A DNA stretch of 64,000 nt from a virus. A program made the position numbers and the translations under genes. How positions within the stretch are numbered: the stretch's first letter is position 1; the number at the start of each line of letters is the position of its first letter. The stretch spans positions 1 through 64,000 of IMG/VR virus record IMGVR_UViG_3300028490_000007. One strand, 5' to 3'. Shown piece by piece: positions 8,095-25,799 of the stretch. A model generated the notes under the pieces. It made no database searches, was not told the DNA's origin, and worked only from the letters and a program-made list of their open reading frames with translations.

Positions 8095-8154
8095 TTTTTC
8101 TCCTAATATATATTGTCTCCGCTTCATGTAATACTTAACTATGAAACGCAATCT

Positions 8155-8216
8155 AAAAAAAATACAACCACCTGCCCAGTACAGACAAGACGGTTAAGTC
8201 TCATCTGCACTGGGCA
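8155..8216 (-). terminator. terminator-like hairpin with U8 tract
   Basis: The arms 8173-8185 and 8204-8216 form a 13-bp stem. On the minus strand the single imperfection is a G-U pair, whereas on the plus strand it would be an A-C mismatch. This favours minus-strand transcription. A second small stem (AGAC/GTCT) sits inside the loop. A run of eight U (8155-8162) follows 10 nt after the stem, a slightly long spacing for a Rho-independent terminator. Confidence 0.5.
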
Positions 8217-8470
8217 ATAATGGATGCTGGTTTAATGCCCTTAGCTGGGCTGTACACTTCGTCCACGTCACAGTATGGCTCGCCGCATGTGTACCCGTCT
8301 GATCACTGATTACAGTTAGTGAACCCACTTACCTAAGTCTTCCGACAGGATTTAGTTTTTGTTACCATGATGGTATTTTGTTTTTGATAGCCGGCTATTA
8401 TATAGCTCTATCTTTTATTAAGGTTTGGTGGGTTGCCCACAAGTTTCGTATATGGATCTTTTCACGGACC
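8165..8470 (-). ncRNA. candidate structured RNA of about 300 nt
   Basis: This stretch has no convincing gene apart from a 25-codon reading frame at its start and is visibly more GC-rich than its neighbours. Minus-strand stems include GTGGG-caa-CCCAC, GATAGCCGGCTATC, ACCAT-c-ATGGT, TCACT/AGTGA, GGGTACAC pairing with GTGTAC..CCC, GCCC/GGGC and the terminal hairpin at 8173-8216. The string of local stems ending in a terminator-like hairpin argues for a discrete transcript. The family is not recognised. Confidence 0.45.
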
Positions 8471-8475
8471 TGCAT
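8398..8475 (-). CDS. possible 25-aa micropeptide
   Basis: A short reading frame with an excellent ribosome site (AAAAGGAGGTAAT) before ATG. It begins M-Q-V-R-E-K-I-H-I-R-N-L and is basic. It overlaps the 5' part of the structured element, so it could be a leader peptide. Too short to judge by composition; the main support is the ribosome site. Confidence 0.3.
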   Translation of the reverse strand: MQVREKIHIRNLWATHQTLIKDRAI

Positions 8476-8490
8476 ATTACCTCCTTTTAT

Positions 8491-8667
8491 TTAGTTGAGT
8501 TCCCAGAACTCTTGTTTTGCTACCTCAAGGGCAGCATTGTTTTGGAGAGTTACACTGTGGTTATCCCACTTGACTCTTCCTTTTTTGTCCTGTATCTTTC
8601 TGATTAGAAATCCTGCATCAGGTGCAGAAATTTCCAATAAGACTTGCTTCTTGTATCTAAGTTCCAT
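8491..8667 (-). CDS. hypothetical small protein
   Basis: 58 aa from the ATG that follows GAAAGGGTAGC. An upstream in-frame ATG at 8700 would overlap the previous gene and has no ribosome site. Predicted beta-rich N-terminus with a C-terminal helix; no recognised domain. Confidence 0.55.
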   Translation of the reverse strand: MELRYKKQVLLEISAPDAGFLIRKIQDKKGRVKWDNHSVTLQNNAALEVAKQEFWELN

Positions 8668-8677
8668 TGCTACCCTT

Positions 8678-8776
8678 TCAGATAAGTGACTGTATGCCAA
8701 TCACGAGTTGACCAAGAACAACAAGTGCTCCTGATACCTTTATGCCTACAATAAGACATGCCTCCATCTTGTCCAT
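8678..8776 (-). CDS. tiny membrane peptide
   Basis: 32 aa. Residues 8-32 are a nearly continuous hydrophobic stretch (C-L-I-V-G-I-K-V-S-G-A-L-V-V-L-G-Q-L-V-I-G-I), consistent with a single membrane span. The frame is open further upstream to 8872, but that part overlaps the better-supported 48-aa gene. The ribosome site is weak, so the start and even the gene are uncertain. Confidence 0.4.
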   Translation of the reverse strand: MDKMEACLIVGIKVSGALVVLGQLVIGIQSLI

Positions 8777-8789
8777 TACTTTGTCAGGA

Positions 8790-8936
8790 TTAAATACTTG
8801 CAAAATTCCAGCCTCCGAATAATGATGACATGACGTCTTCAGTATTAACGTGTCTAATAACGCCATCTTCATCCGACATTAACACTCTGCCCCAAATATC
8901 TAAACCACCGTAAAGGTTATTATCTTTCTCAAACAT
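8790..8936 (-). CDS. hypothetical small protein
   Basis: 48 aa, starting M-F-E-K-D-N-N-L-Y-G-G-L-D-I-W-G with a very strong ribosome site (CGGAGGTACAAA). It sits directly at the 3' end of the large structured region and begins the tiny-gene cluster. The composition is protein-like, with W and G in loops. Not recognised. Confidence 0.6.
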   Translation of the reverse strand: MFEKDNNLYGGLDIWGRVLMSDEDGVIRHVNTEDVMSSLFGGWNFASI

Positions 8937-10470
8937 TTTGTACCTCCGTACTGTAGCCCAACGCTTAGGTGCTACGTGATCAAAATTTTCGTACTAGACA
9001 GTCGATCAGTTCTGTCCGCCTTTTCTTTTTCGCTTTAAGGTAGCTATTCTTTTCAAGTTTCAATGCCTATACAAAAATTGCAATAGACTCGCTTCTGCGT
9101 GAAAGACAACCGCCAGTTATAAGGCTCAGGGTGAGCACAAACGCCTCCTGCAAGCAGGTTTGACTTCCGGGGACTTCCGGCTATTACGAGCCTTCTCTAT
9201 CGGCAGACTATGTATAAGCCACTAAGAGAACACTTCCTACAATCTGTAGGCTACCTCACTCATAGACAGTGGGGTTATGTATAAAACACAACAATCAATA
9301 TTCCGTGGAATACTCATTGTTACGATTTACATTTATTATGTAATCGCAACTGAAACCTTAATCGCTACCCCGTAGTAAGGGTCATTGCGATCTCGGTCCT
9401 CGTTGCTTCCCGGTTTTTAAAACCGAGTACAAAAATTGTACCCGGTTCGTTTCCGGGACAACGGTCATACAGAAATCATTGCATGTGAAAGGTATGACAA
9501 CCTCACATGCTCTACCCTACTACGTTCACCGATTGAGTGAAACAGGGTTGGCAAGCCTAAGCTCACCGGTTAGCTTTCTTTGTCAATAGTAGCTATACTA
9601 TTAAGAAGCCGGGAAATGACCCAGCCTCAAAACTTGTTTTTTTACAACCCACAAGTAACGTGATGGCGGTTTTTTAACGTGGTTTCTCACGCTGATTTTT
9701 ACGTCTTATCTGACGGGACGGTTCTCTTCTTACCGACAACGGGGTCTCACCCAGTCCTTCGTTTTCACACCAAACAGGTAACGGCTACGTTTAACGCCCA
9801 GCTAGGCAACGAAATCATCAAAGCTCCAATAAGCTCTCATGGTCTCGCCCTCCGTAGAGGACCGGTTTGATTACCGAGTTAATGACCACAATCTTATGCG
9901 TCAAGACCTTCTCGGTTGCAGAGCACAGAATTCACTGTGTTGACTTCGCATGCGTCTTGCACATGCTTCCCAAGACTTTGCTCTTCAGCTTGGGGTTCTG
10001 GTTCGTCTGGTAGCTACCCAGACTCTGATCTTCACCTCTCGTGCTAACGATAGGCTATCTTCCACGACATTGCTGTCTGAAGCCCTTACACACCGACATG
10101 TGTAAGCATATTAAATCGGCTATTGTTCAGCGTTGCTAATCCCTGCCGGAGAAGTAGCTGCTTTATCCAGGTTCACTGGTTCTGGCGTGTATATATTCCT
10201 ACTGTACACCAGAAGTGTGGAGTTGACATAACCCACAATAGCTCGTTTTCCCGTAACCGGATTGGTGGTAGCACACCGTGTTGTACCCTTTATGGAATAC
10301 ATGTTCATTCAAGAGACTATGCCGCCTCACTCGAACCAGGTCTCAACCTGTAGTGTTGTTCTGTTTCAACACATCTAGCCATCACAGGCAATACAGTGTA
10401 AATCATCCAACGATGACTTAGTGCTGTATTCAATGGACTTGTATACCGCCCATTGAGAGCGGTTTTATGA
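8937..10470 (-). ncRNA. large structured non-coding region, candidate giant phage ncRNA
   Basis: About 1.5 kb without a credible gene, more GC-rich than the coding regions and dense in inverted repeats. Examples: GTCATAC/GTATGAC interleaved with GCATGTG/CACATGC (9464-9510); the arms around 9342-9370 that form a 12-bp stem; CTTACACA/TGTGTAAG near 10085-10106; AATACAG/CTGTATT near 10390-10430; GTACAA/TTGTAC near 9427-9441; and CCTAC/GTAGG near 9237-9251. Several imperfect stems become G-U paired only on the minus strand (9342-9370, 10402-10420), and all neighbours are on the minus strand, which favours that strand. One stem near 9253-9273 fits the plus strand better. Size and location are compatible with the ornate phage RNAs GOLLD or ROOL, but I cannot match a consensus by eye. 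It may be more than one RNA. Confidence 0.55.
9464..9510 (-). other. perfect H-type pseudoknot
   Basis: Two 7-bp perfect stems are interleaved: 9464-9470 pairs with 9492-9498, and 9481-9487 pairs with 9504-9510. Chance occurrence of two perfect interleaved 7-bp stems in 47 nt is low. It lies in the middle of the large structured region and is the clearest tertiary-type element there. Confidence 0.55.
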
Positions 10471-10608
10471 CTATCCTAGCTCACAAGCTACTCCGGGGTT
10501 GGAGTCAAGCATTCGATTAAATCTTTCGATCCAATTCTTCTGCTCAAGAGTAAGCTGCTTAGCTGGTATGGCCATCATTTTTTTAAAGTTTTGTAACGTA
10601 TATTTCAT
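10471..10608 (-). CDS. hypothetical small basic protein
   Basis: 45 aa with a strong ribosome site (TGGAGGTGTGTT). It begins M-K-Y-T-L-Q-N-F-K-K-M-M and contains a helix L-E-Q-K-N-W-I-E-R-F-N-R-M-L. It is the first gene downstream of one of the two 31-bp promoter-like repeats and directly precedes the large structured RNA region, so they may be co-transcribed. Not recognised. Confidence 0.6.
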   Translation of the reverse strand: MKYTLQNFKKMMAIPAKQLTLEQKNWIERFNRMLDSNPGVACELG

Positions 10609-10702
10609 AACACACCTCCATTATTTTGTGTGGCGATACTTGTTTCCAGAGTATCTGAACCCATATAAATGCAATACTTAGCTATCTACTTAGGGAAATT
10701 GT

Positions 10703-10733
10703 AAGATATATTCTCCTACATAGTATATACCCG
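10703..10733 (-). promoter_or_regulatory. promoter-like 31-bp repeat, copy 1
   Basis: Matches 11547-11577 at 30 of 31 positions. On the minus strand its core is CGGGTATATACTATGTAGGA, containing TATACT. It is 95 nt upstream of the 10471-10608 start codon. Both copies sit at the same kind of place, 100 nt or so before a minus-strand gene, which is why I read them as phage promoters rather than random repeats. The motif does not resemble the TTGACT/TATAAT sites of the virion region. Confidence 0.55.
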
Positions 10734-10757
10734 AAAAACGGCCATTTTTACACCTTT

Positions 10758-10789
10758 TTAGGGCTATTTAGGGCTATTTTAGGGGCAAT
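10758..10789. repeat. three tandem 10-11 bp iterons
   Basis: TTAGGGCTAT occurs twice back to back (10758-10767 and 10768-10777), followed by the variant TTAGGGGCAA (10779-10788). The run lies between the end of the MazG-like gene and the promoter-like repeat. It could be an operator or a protein-binding array. The rest of 10609-10801 is AT-rich leader with no gene. Confidence 0.5.
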
Positions 10790-10801
10790 ATACAGAAGCA
10801 A

Positions 10802-11546: not shown

Positions 11547-11577
11547 AAGATATAATCTCCTACATAGTATATACCCG
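11547..11577 (-). promoter_or_regulatory. promoter-like 31-bp repeat, copy 2
   Basis: Near-identical to 10703-10733 (one difference). Reading on the minus strand gives TATACT in the core, with the start codon of the membrane protein gene 108 nt further on. The remainder of 11440-11659 is AT-rich leader and carries no gene. Confidence 0.55.
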
Positions 11578-11629
11578 TTTTCTGTCGGTTTTTACAGTTG
11601 TTTGGAATGGTGTTTCTGGGGGATAAGAC

Positions 11630-11659: not shown

Positions 11660-12211
11660 TTACGCTACTTTTTTGAAAAACTCTATAAAGGAATTGGTCA
11701 ACTCTTCACGTCCTCTTTGTCCGTGCATATACTCACTCTGATGTGATGCAAAGAATGGCTCTATGAGAATACAATAAGATCTACCTCTACACAGGAAGCC
11801 ACCACCTCTGTTTTTCTTTGTCTTAGGTTTGACGCCTCTATCTCTATTGTTTAAGTGTTTAGTAAAGATGGTATTCATCATTCCTGCATACCTAGCACTT
11901 GTCGTACTTCTTGAGCAATGTAGAACCTCATGACCATTTGCACTAGCATGAGAAGAAGCATTGAAGTGTAGGGAAATAGATATGCTTGCACCCCATGCAT
12001 CAATCTCTTTGTGTAGCATCTTCATTCTCTGAGTGTATCCATGCCCTGACTCTTTTCTATGGAATATTTTAAGTTCAACACCGGTTCCTTTGGCTTCCTC
12101 TACTATCTCTTTGGCTAGGTCATTATAAAATGCCCATTCAGACACCCCACTATTACCATACGCTCCACGACTTCTACTTCTATGTCCTATGACAAGTGCT
12201 ATCTTTTTCAT
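11660..12211 (-). CDS. endolysin, N-acetylmuramoyl-L-alanine amidase (Amidase_3)
   Basis: 183 aa from the ATG following AGGAGAAC. The zinc-amidase signature is complete: H10 in V-I-G-H, E25 in S-E-W, H82 in S-L-H-F-N-A and E151 in I-E-P-F-F. This family cleaves the bond between MurNAc and the stem peptide of peptidoglycan. There is no signal peptide, so release would depend on a holin. The start codon overlaps the HNH gene stop by 4 nt. The lysis partners (holin, spanins) are 14 kb away on the other strand. Confidence 0.92.
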   Translation of the reverse strand: MKKIALVIGHRSRSRGAYGNSGVSEWAFYNDLAKEIVEEAKGTGVELKIFHRKESGHGYTQRMKMLHKEIDAWGASISISLHFNASSHASANGHEVLHCSRSTTSARYAGMMNTIFTKHLNNRDRGVKPKTKKNRGGGFLCRGRSYCILIEPFFASHQSEYMHGQRGREELTNSFIEFFKKVA

Positions 12212-12519
12212 TTTTGTTCTCCTGTTAATATTGATTTTAAGTACGTACACAGTACCATAAAGTTTGCGAAGTCGTACTTTGTACACTTCTCTCTATACGA
12301 GCGTTTAAAGTTGGTATGGAAGTTCATGTGACATTTTCCACACAGTGTTATCCCATTGTCAACATCATGCCTCTCTTCCGGGAAGTAAGAGCCACTGTTT
12401 AGATGATGAGCTGATCTTCCCTGTATGCTACCACATCCGGGAACTTGGCAGACCTTATCTCGCAATATGACTCTTACCCTCCATATCCTATAATCTCTAG
12501 TGTGATGCCATTTTGCCAT
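12208..12519 (-). CDS. HNH endonuclease
   Basis: 103 aa. It has C-Q-V-P-G-C, A-H-H-L, the D-N-G-I-T-L-C-G-K-C-H segment and a closing H-x3-H; this is the HNH fold with two structural zinc-binding cysteine pairs. Free-standing HNH proteins of this size act as homing or DNA-processing nucleases. It is translationally coupled to the endolysin, which is an odd pairing and may reflect a homing insertion beside a lysis gene. The ribosome site is moderate (AAGGTATTACT). Confidence 0.85.
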   Translation of the reverse strand: MAKWHHTRDYRIWRVRVILRDKVCQVPGCGSIQGRSAHHLNSGSYFPEERHDVDNGITLCGKCHMNFHTNFKRSYREKCTKYDFANFMVLCTYLKSILTGEQK

Positions 12520-12741: not shown

Positions 12742-12830
12742 AGATGGTTGTCTGAGCGGTTTAAAGAGCTTCCCTGCTAAGGAAGTGTGGGCCTGTCTCA
12801 CCGAAGGTTCAAATCCTTCACCATCTGCCA
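12742..12830 (+). tRNA. tRNA-Ser (GCU)
   Basis: 89 nt with an encoded CCA. The acceptor stem is AGATGGT/ACCATCT with discriminator G; the anticodon stem CTTCC/GGAAG encloses CTGCTAA, giving anticodon GCU; there is a long variable arm as in class II tRNAs; the T stem is GAAGG/CCTTC with loop TTCAAAT. It would read AGC and AGU serine codons. It is the only tRNA I found in the window. Confidence 0.95.
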
Positions 12831-24056: not shown

Positions 24057-25799
24057 ATGGATGCACTAAGAGAACTCAACAAGCTTATGCCAAGCGACGT
24101 ACAGTTTACTGGTGCAGACATGCCTTTAACTAAGGCATCTATAATGCCGAAGTTAACACAATTCGCTTCCAAACACCCTTCCCTCTACGCACAAAAGATA
24201 CACAAAATACGTGAACTCGGAGAAGAGCTTGCCTACTTAAATGGTCACAACATGGGACCAAAAGATTTAACATATTCAAACCAAAAAGATATTGATAAGC
24301 TTCTGTCCACCGAAGATGCTAAGGTTCGTAAGATGAGCCCAGAAAAAGCAAAGACGCATCTTATCAATGTATTTAATCAAGTCCAGAACATAGTTATGAA
24401 AAACAAGGATAACAACCTAGTGTCTCAGGCTGCTTCTAAGGGAAGAGGTAATCCTGCCACAGCTTCAAGGATTGGAGCAGGAGTTGTATATGCAGTAGAT
24501 ATGAATTCAGAGCCCTACCCCTTTATGATAAAGAACAGTTTATCTACAGGACTAAATGCTCATGAGCAATATGTATCTGGAGGACAAGCAAGATATGCTG
24601 CCGTTCAAGCAGCCGTATCTACTTCTGAACCAGGAGCAATGGGCAAGGTTCTTATTGCAAATACCGAAGACCTAAAGATCGCAGAAAAAGATTGTGGGAC
24701 AAGAAACGGTATCATGGTTCCGGTTATGGGGAATGATGCTATATCAAGATATGAAGCAGGAACGAACAAACTTGTAGATGAGCAATATCTAAAATCCTTG
24801 AGAGCAAGAGGCAAGCGTAAGATTAAAGTCCGATCACCAATAACTTGCAAGTCAAGACATGGCGTGTGCTCAATGTGTATGGGAAAAAATTCTAACGGCA
24901 ATCTTCCAACAGTAGGTCACAATGTTGGGATAGAGGCTGCTCAATCTATGTCTGAAAAAGCAATACAGCTCATTCTTAGTGCAAAGCATAATGTCGCAGG
25001 TAAGACAGCTTCTCATATTCCTACAGGATTTCAGGCAGCCAAGATACTGCTAAACTCGACAGAGAAATTCAAAGGGAAGGCGGCTGTATCCTCTATTGGT
25101 GGAAATGTCAAGTCTATACACAAGCTTACTACTGGTGGGTACAATATCAACATATCGGGAGTAGACCACTTTACTTCACAGCATGTTTCCCCGAAGGTTA
25201 CAGTTGGGTCAGTGGTAGACAAGGGAGATATCTTAACTAATGGTATCGCCTCTACAAAAGATATTCTATCCCACAGAGGCGTATTAGAAGCCAGAAAGTA
25301 TTTGTCTGACGAGTTGGACAAAGTGCATGGTGGCTCCATAGACAAGAGAAACTTTGAAGTTGTAAGTAGAGGGTATCTAAACCTCGTTAAACCGATGAGC
25401 GATAAGTCTCATGGCAATATGAAAACATTTGACGAATTTGTTCCAACTATAAATGGAACACATATGAAAATGATGAACACATCAGACAAGCAAATAACTA
25501 AAAAATTCTTAGCTGAACCGGCTCTGCATTTTAGCCCAGGTAAACAAATTACAAAAACAGTGGCTGGCTATTTAAAGAAAAATGGGGTAAAATCCGTTAA
25601 GGTTTCTCATACTCCTCTTGATTACACACCTGTATTCAAGACGTATGAGCAGAGACCTCTATTCAATAAGTCTATGTGGCAACAGATAAACTATAGAGGC
25701 ATCAAGAAGGGACTCACTGATGGACTACTGTCCGGAGGTGAAGAGGATCTTAATCATATAAAGTCTGATAGAGCCCGTTTCGCTCTAGGCATACTATAA
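24057..25799 (+). CDS. RNA polymerase beta-prime C-terminal-half homologue
   Basis: 580 aa. It aligns with bacterial RpoC from the bridge-helix region onward: S-K-G-R-G-N (126-132, compare S-G-A-R-G-N), I-K-N-S-L-S-T-G-L (158-166), E-K-D-C-G-T-R (210-216), V-R-S-P-I-T-C-K-S-R-H-G-V-C-S-M-C-M-G (258-276), and the trigger-loop block G-I-E-A-A-Q-S-M-S-E-K-A-I-Q-L-x5-H (291-311). All four zinc cysteines (C213, C264, C271, C274) and the trigger-loop histidine H311 are kept. The N-A-D-F-D-G-D catalytic motif is absent, since that half of beta-prime is missing. It sits among virion genes and contains no own promoter. It may be part of a split phage polymerase, or a structural protein derived from one. 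Confidence 0.85.
   Translation: MDALRELNKLMPSDVQFTGADMPLTKASIMPKLTQFASKHPSLYAQKIHKIRELGEELAYLNGHNMGPKDLTYSNQKDIDKLLSTEDAKVRKMSPEKAKTHLINVFNQVQNIVMKNKDNNLVSQAASKGRGNPATASRIGAGVVYAVDMNSEPYPFMIKNSLSTGLNAHEQYVSGGQARYAAVQAAVSTSEPGAMGKVLIANTEDLKIAEKDCGTRNGIMVPVMGNDAISRYEAGTNKLVDEQYLKSLRARGKRKIKVRSPITCKSRHGVCSMCMGKNSNGNLPTVGHNVGIEAAQSMSEKAIQLILSAKHNVAGKTASHIPTGFQAAKILLNSTEKFKGKAAVSSIGGNVKSIHKLTTGGYNINISGVDHFTSQHVSPKVTVGSVVDKGDILTNGIASTKDILSHRGVLEARKYLSDELDKVHGGSIDKRNFEVVSRGYLNLVKPMSDKSHGNMKTFDEFVPTINGTHMKMMNTSDKQITKKFLAEPALHFSPGKQITKTVAGYLKKNGVKSVKVSHTPLDYTPVFKTYEQRPLFNKSMWQQINYRGIKKGLTDGLLSGGEEDLNHIKSDRARFALGIL

Follow-up and report, generated by a model that had tools for sequence, protein, structure and literature searches.

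The window, by which we mean the whole 64-kb stretch of DNA that was analysed, belongs to a 77,122-bp virus record whose terminase is of the phrog_675 kind and which carries an RNA polymerase beta'-like subunit (Pfam PF04998) at 24057-25799 on the plus strand. Its nearest named relatives, all remote, are Salmonella phage Arash and Vibrio phages D181, D148 and D69, with genomes of 180-187 kb and about 30% protein identity; its close relatives are found in IMG/VR only, and consist of G002 (187,664 bp), G004 (97 kb), G005 (165 kb) and two fragments. An endolysin gene occupies positions 11660-12286, with an HNH endonuclease gene nearby, and beside it lies a run of small features on the minus strand. 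Read in the direction of that strand, these are two copies of a promoter-like element, TGTAAA-N17-TATATACTATGTAGGAG (11556-11596 and 10712-10752), a 45-aa ORF (MKYTLQNFKKMMAIPAKQ..., 10471-10608), a 1.53-kb gap (10470 to 8945) that is flanked by tiny ORFs and holds no credible gene, a 48-aa ORF (MFEKDNNLYGG..., 8790-8936), a 32-aa ORF for a predicted membrane peptide (8678-8776), a 58-aa ORF ending in ..EFWELN (8491-8667), and a long hairpin followed by T8 (8155-8216), the probable end of an operon transcript. Both the 45-aa ORF (L018 3750-3902) and the 48-aa ORF have counterparts at the same place in G002; positional counterparts of the membrane peptide and homologues of the 58-aa protein are present in L018 and L110, and the hairpin is kept in G002 with changes in its pairing.

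CGGGTATATACTATGTAGGAG occurs twice in the window and twice in G002, and this element had no other occurrence, with up to four changes allowed, in the stretches scanned. The second copy lies upstream of the 45-aa ORF and the gap, within a block of about 125 bp that is 90% identical in G002, and G004 has a diverged near copy of it. The element is unusually conserved, and each of the two phages has exactly two copies (in G002, L018 near 2837 and 3252), both in the lysis region and not phage-wide. Since a conserved promoter-like block stands upstream and the hairpin with its T8 downstream, the gap probably belongs to the transcript of a lysis-region operon; transcription probably starts at the element at 10752-10712, and the small operon beside the endolysin gene would end at the hairpin and T-run at 8216-8155. 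A tRNA-Ser gene in the window (12742-12830, plus strand) and three tRNA genes in G002 (L018 1069-1487, minus strand) lie 2-3 kb upstream of the gap on the opposite strand, a placement that recalls the tRNA neighbourhood of GOLLD and ROOL RNAs.

The gap itself was characterized as a large structured noncoding tract (8945-10470, minus strand) by the ORF list, folding z-scores, a coding test and a covariation test. It begins directly after the stop codon of the 45-aa ORF and extends to the Shine-Dalgarno sequence of the ORF whose start codon is at 8936. The initial annotation had described a gene-free tract of deviant base composition at 8937-10470, and both descriptions proved correct: no ORF of 80 aa or more is present on either strand in 8152-10801, and GC content in 200-nt windows is 0.456 in the tract vs 0.404 (sd 0.032) elsewhere in the window. 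For minus-strand folding the mean z is -2.25 in the tract, where individual 200-nt windows reach -6.8, vs -0.39 (sd 1.23) elsewhere; on the plus strand the corresponding means are -1.31 vs -0.65. The tract is thereby the strongest minus-strand folding excess in the 64-kb window. The nine 1.5-kb stretches with the most structure in the window all start at 9.0-10.35 kb on the minus strand, so the excess also extends upstream, across the promoter region and a pair of short genes, as far as about 11.4 kb.

A homologous tract in a related phage

The 187,664-bp IMG/VR contig G002 carries a like tract of 1.46 kb in the same place, between matching small ORFs. About 560 nt can be aligned between the two at 67-81% identity, and the alignable parts fall into three minus-strand segments. 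Segment A (10150-10228; 53/79 identical, with two pairs changed on both sides) has a stem that is UUCUGG/CCAGAA in the window and UCCUGG/CCAGGA in G002, around AGUAGGA.UAUAUAC, with a CCAG hairpin next to it. Segment B (9778-9945; 113/164 identical) holds a CCUC hairpin, a GCGAG..CUCGU-type stem with an AGAGCUU/AGCUUU hairpin, and a pseudoknot; double-sided pair changes number three when only the window's fold is used and five with the consensus fold, of which no pair is broken. The conserved 3' domain (8950-9275; 259/319 identical) has a 76-pair consensus fold and is closed by a predicted long-range stem immediately before the Shine-Dalgarno sequence of the next gene.

Between segment B and the 3' domain the window carries a strongly folded block of about 500 nt (9280-9777, minus strand, z to -6.8) that is absent from G002, where the pseudoknot adjoins the 3' domain directly and additional sequence is found elsewhere; the 5' half is mostly unalignable, and the modules come in the same order in both phages. 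The tract is thus modular: its 3' domain is conserved and its 5' half variable, and it has in addition the window-specific insert (about 500 nt) and a pseudoknot-like core of 24 nt. As there are two full-length members, the case for structure in most of the 5' half comes from folding energy, and the structure model is partial. The corresponding lysis loci of the closest relatives, G004 and G005, have no giant tract and show short pseudoknot-bearing gaps only (the G004 contig ends nearby). Neither the tract nor its 3' domain had a blastn match in named phages, and DNA patterns built from the 3' domain recovered from IMG/VR the known relative only, together with chance coding matches.

Covariation was measured by predicting pairs from one sequence alone and scoring them in the other, against a null of independent substitution with the same base changes; the test was confined to the three anchored segments, as a whole-tract MAFFT alignment misaligned the middle. 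When the window's pairs were scored in G002, 127 fell in aligned columns and 37 had changed, of which 18 still pair vs 28% expected (P 0.0005), with 7 changes on both sides vs about 3 expected. In the opposite direction 16 of 32 changed pairs still pair vs 25% expected (P 0.001), and 9 are changed on both sides vs about 3 expected. The signal belongs to one strand, with P <=0.003 in all four settings on the minus strand vs P 0.02-0.24 on the plus strand, in agreement with the earlier remark that G-U pairs complete the stems on the minus strand. Conservation between the two sequences is seen in all six reading frames, and indels are of one to four bases and not in threes; conservation of the tract is therefore not of the coding type. 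The alignment with a related phage proposed in the initial annotation thus gave retained pairing of changed helix bases on the minus strand (P about 0.001 in both directions), and codon-type conservation, which had been named there as a refuting sign, was not seen in it. Retained minus-strand pairing and non-codon conservation together indicate that the tract is a real, conserved, structured minus-strand RNA, as judged from two sequences.

A 24-nt pseudoknot-like core in other large phages

The initial annotation had also proposed stems and a pseudoknot packed throughout the tract. The support found is for one pseudoknot-like element, at 9807-9784, and does not extend to pseudoknots along the whole length. 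This minus-strand core, GCCUAGCUGGGCGUUAAACGUAGC (9784-9807), can be read as an H-type pseudoknot with stems S1 (GCC/GGC) and S2 (GCU/AGC), and the same core, with the consensus GCCnAGCUGGGCKUnAAAnGnAGC, is present in 11 large-phage records: the window and G002, where it lies in the tract, and G004, G005, G042, G043, G044, G045, G046, G047 and G048. With up to three changes allowed it occurs exactly once in 11/11 of these records, between genes, and not at all in 28 others or in reversed-pattern controls; as the 11 records were picked by the motif itself, this count does not tell how frequent the core is. Searching with a model made from 12 copies gave 13 strong hits (>=26 bits), and no other hit scored above 18.3 bits. 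Two records, the window and G005, hold a further copy of variant form, in which S1 and L2 are longer and which immediately precedes a terminator-like hairpin (in the window GCCCAGCUAAGGGCAUUAAACCAGC, 8226-8250, minus strand, 26.5 bits). Because S1 and S2 are invariant in the main form, the pseudoknot assignment draws on topology, the variant copies and conservation, and not on covariation. T-even gene 32 mRNA carries H-type pseudoknots, which resemble the core in having two short stems of the same topology in a phage mRNA; however, the core differs from them in sequence, copy number and position, and shows no sign of an autoregulated protein.

Outside the giant tracts the core copies lie in gene gaps, mostly 5-21 nt past a stop codon and in several cases before a hairpin and T-run (L110 8571-8808 and 9490-9617; L106 545-258; L200 5982-5959; L211 4423-4400; L138 3588-3565). 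In G005 one core stands in a gap of 237 nt, ahead of the ORF that precedes the membrane-peptide and 58-aa homologues; this is the place corresponding to that of the giant tract. In the unrelated 116-kb phage G043 (L125, about 1060-1420) a gene-free stretch of about 340 nt, with terminator-like hairpins on both sides, ends in an identical core and also contains GGAGTATATAC, as does the window's segment A. The upstream part of this stretch was rejected as a homologue of the tract: a short match, GGAnTATATAC, is unique to the window, G002 and G043, yet overall similarity equals that of shuffled sequences. A wider pseudoknot pattern was likewise set aside, as its matches were mostly to a coding family, and pseudoknot matches in genome contigs were coding. 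In L106 a leader, CAAAGGTTTCATAGCCTAAAACTTTTAAGGAG, stands before three genes (about 2040, 1470 and 300, minus strand), two of them for repeat-rich leucine proteins, with the last copy one T shorter.

An RNA polymerase Rpb1 domain-5 match was found in at least 7 of the 11 core-bearing records, six of them over the cut-off (G044-G046 are fragments), PF04998 being matched in the window plus at least six other core-carrying records. We tentatively raise the possibility, which we would put at well below even, that the 24-nt sequence is the universal core of a new phage RNA family, maintained as a single copy in each genome (as two copies in two genomes) across distant large phages, most with their own multi-subunit RNA polymerase, that this family reaches its greatest elaboration in the giant tract, and that the core might act on phage transcription or translation machinery.

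Relation to known RNAs and possible roles

To our knowledge few classes of giant ornate phage RNA have been described, none with a known function. Against 4227 Rfam families, at gathering and lax thresholds, the tract gave no credible match; a cmscan of 8100-10800 at lax settings gave no group I or group II intron match at E <=5, and its only match was a chance one, to SmY. The GOLLD (RF02032) and ROOL (RF03087) models had no match at E <=10 in 8 records including ICP1; because no control genome came over the cut-off for the first model, whose sensitivity is uncalibrated, and none matched the second, these negatives rest also on the empty cmscan of the tract. GOLLD has a conserved 3' and a variable 5' region and late expression has been reported for it, and both GOLLD and ROOL form cages with no known function (PMC12286853). 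The tract likewise has the marks of a large ornate phage RNA, as a long noncoding tract with covariation-supported helices (in two sequences), and it shares with GOLLD a conserved 3' region (81% identical in two phages), a largely unalignable 5' half and a neighbourhood of tRNA genes, near which GOLLD is often located. However, it has no sequence or structure match to GOLLD, is about twice the length of that 800-nt class, and lies in an operon of tiny ORFs by an endolysin gene. ROOL is also a large ornate RNA of phages and prophages with pseudoknots, but the tract does not match it and ROOL is about 580-660 nt long. Among open-licence papers we found no report of the tract RNA. The initial annotation's proposal of a giant ornate phage RNA is thus supported as to a giant structured minus-strand RNA (homologue, retained pairing, no coding signal) and not as to an unusually long GOLLD or ROOL variant; its suggestion of a new class fits best, and a new class within this kind of RNA is the most likely placement.

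On balance we lean towards reading the tract as encoding a structured noncoding RNA, large (about 1.5 kb) and modular, that is transcribed from the minus strand with the lysis operon and forms a stable particle like GOLLD and ROOL. The conserved 3' domain, the pseudoknot-bearing core and the variable 5' half would fold as separate domains, and by analogy with those RNAs a stable RNA particle would most likely act late in infection. In such a role, which is suggested by the likeness to known RNAs, the promoter would be used, and the RNA would be processed from a polycistronic transcript, be stable, assemble with itself and act in trans. The position inside an operon counts against a separate stable RNA, and suits instead a very long cis-acting control region in which the RNA fold would control how the downstream 48-aa, membrane-peptide and 58-aa ORFs are read through or translated, the pseudoknot acting on the ribosome or the phage RNA polymerase. 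The tract is co-directional within the operon, its 3' domain closes right before the next Shine-Dalgarno sequence, most core copies elsewhere lie between co-directional genes, and the polymerase domain is common among the core-bearing records; but 1.5 kb is far beyond what such controls need, genes downstream of the other core copies look unrelated, and the 5' half is freely variable, both in length and in sequence. We regard cis control as a serious though somewhat doubtful contender.

It is rather unlikely that the tract is two or more RNAs in a row, with a pseudoknot-ended 5' RNA (10470-9780), a phage-specific insert (9780-9280) and a conserved 3' RNA (9275-8950). The absence of the insert from G002 and the G043 stretch that ends in pseudoknot and terminator would fit such a series; however, within the tract neither an internal promoter nor a convincing terminator was seen, both phages have the same module order, and upstream of its pseudoknot G043 has no significant similarity in sequence. 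It is very improbable that the tract is an intergenic relic, be it a decayed gene, an intron or a mobile element: an HNH endonuclease gene is near the endolysin gene and the lengths differ between phages, but some 560 nt are kept with pairing retained, and there is neither an intron match nor a coding trace. Least probable is a divergent GOLLD or ROOL RNA, which we disfavour; size class, phage origin, a GOLLD-like division into conserved 3' and variable 5' regions (PMC12286853) and tRNA genes 2-3 kb away speak for it, but neither model matched at E <=10, nor did cmscan with lax settings.

Should the tract be a further class of giant ornate RNA, its doubled length, its place in a lysis-region operon and a short core common to other large phages would offer a new handle on function; its relatives' small pseudoknot units give something to set the giant form against, and cryo-EM and infected-cell RNA-seq have an obvious target in the tract. 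A parallel is found in ICP1, where the transcript of highest abundance, some 800 nt long and free of ORFs, comes from the gp139/gp140 gap next to the lysis cluster (PMC7567579). Like the tract, it is an orphan ORF-less RNA of a large lytic phage beside lysis genes, but it has no pseudoknot core at that place and no significant overall similarity. One block near its 3' part, GCUACC..UAAAGC, has a weak likeness to the 3' domain, as good in 2 of 100 shuffles, and with similarity no more than borderline the ICP1 RNA was rejected as a homologue. The ICP1 noncoding RNA (L239 5098-6108, minus strand) had no Rfam match above the cut-off and, as in the window's tract, GCUACC occurs in it several times.
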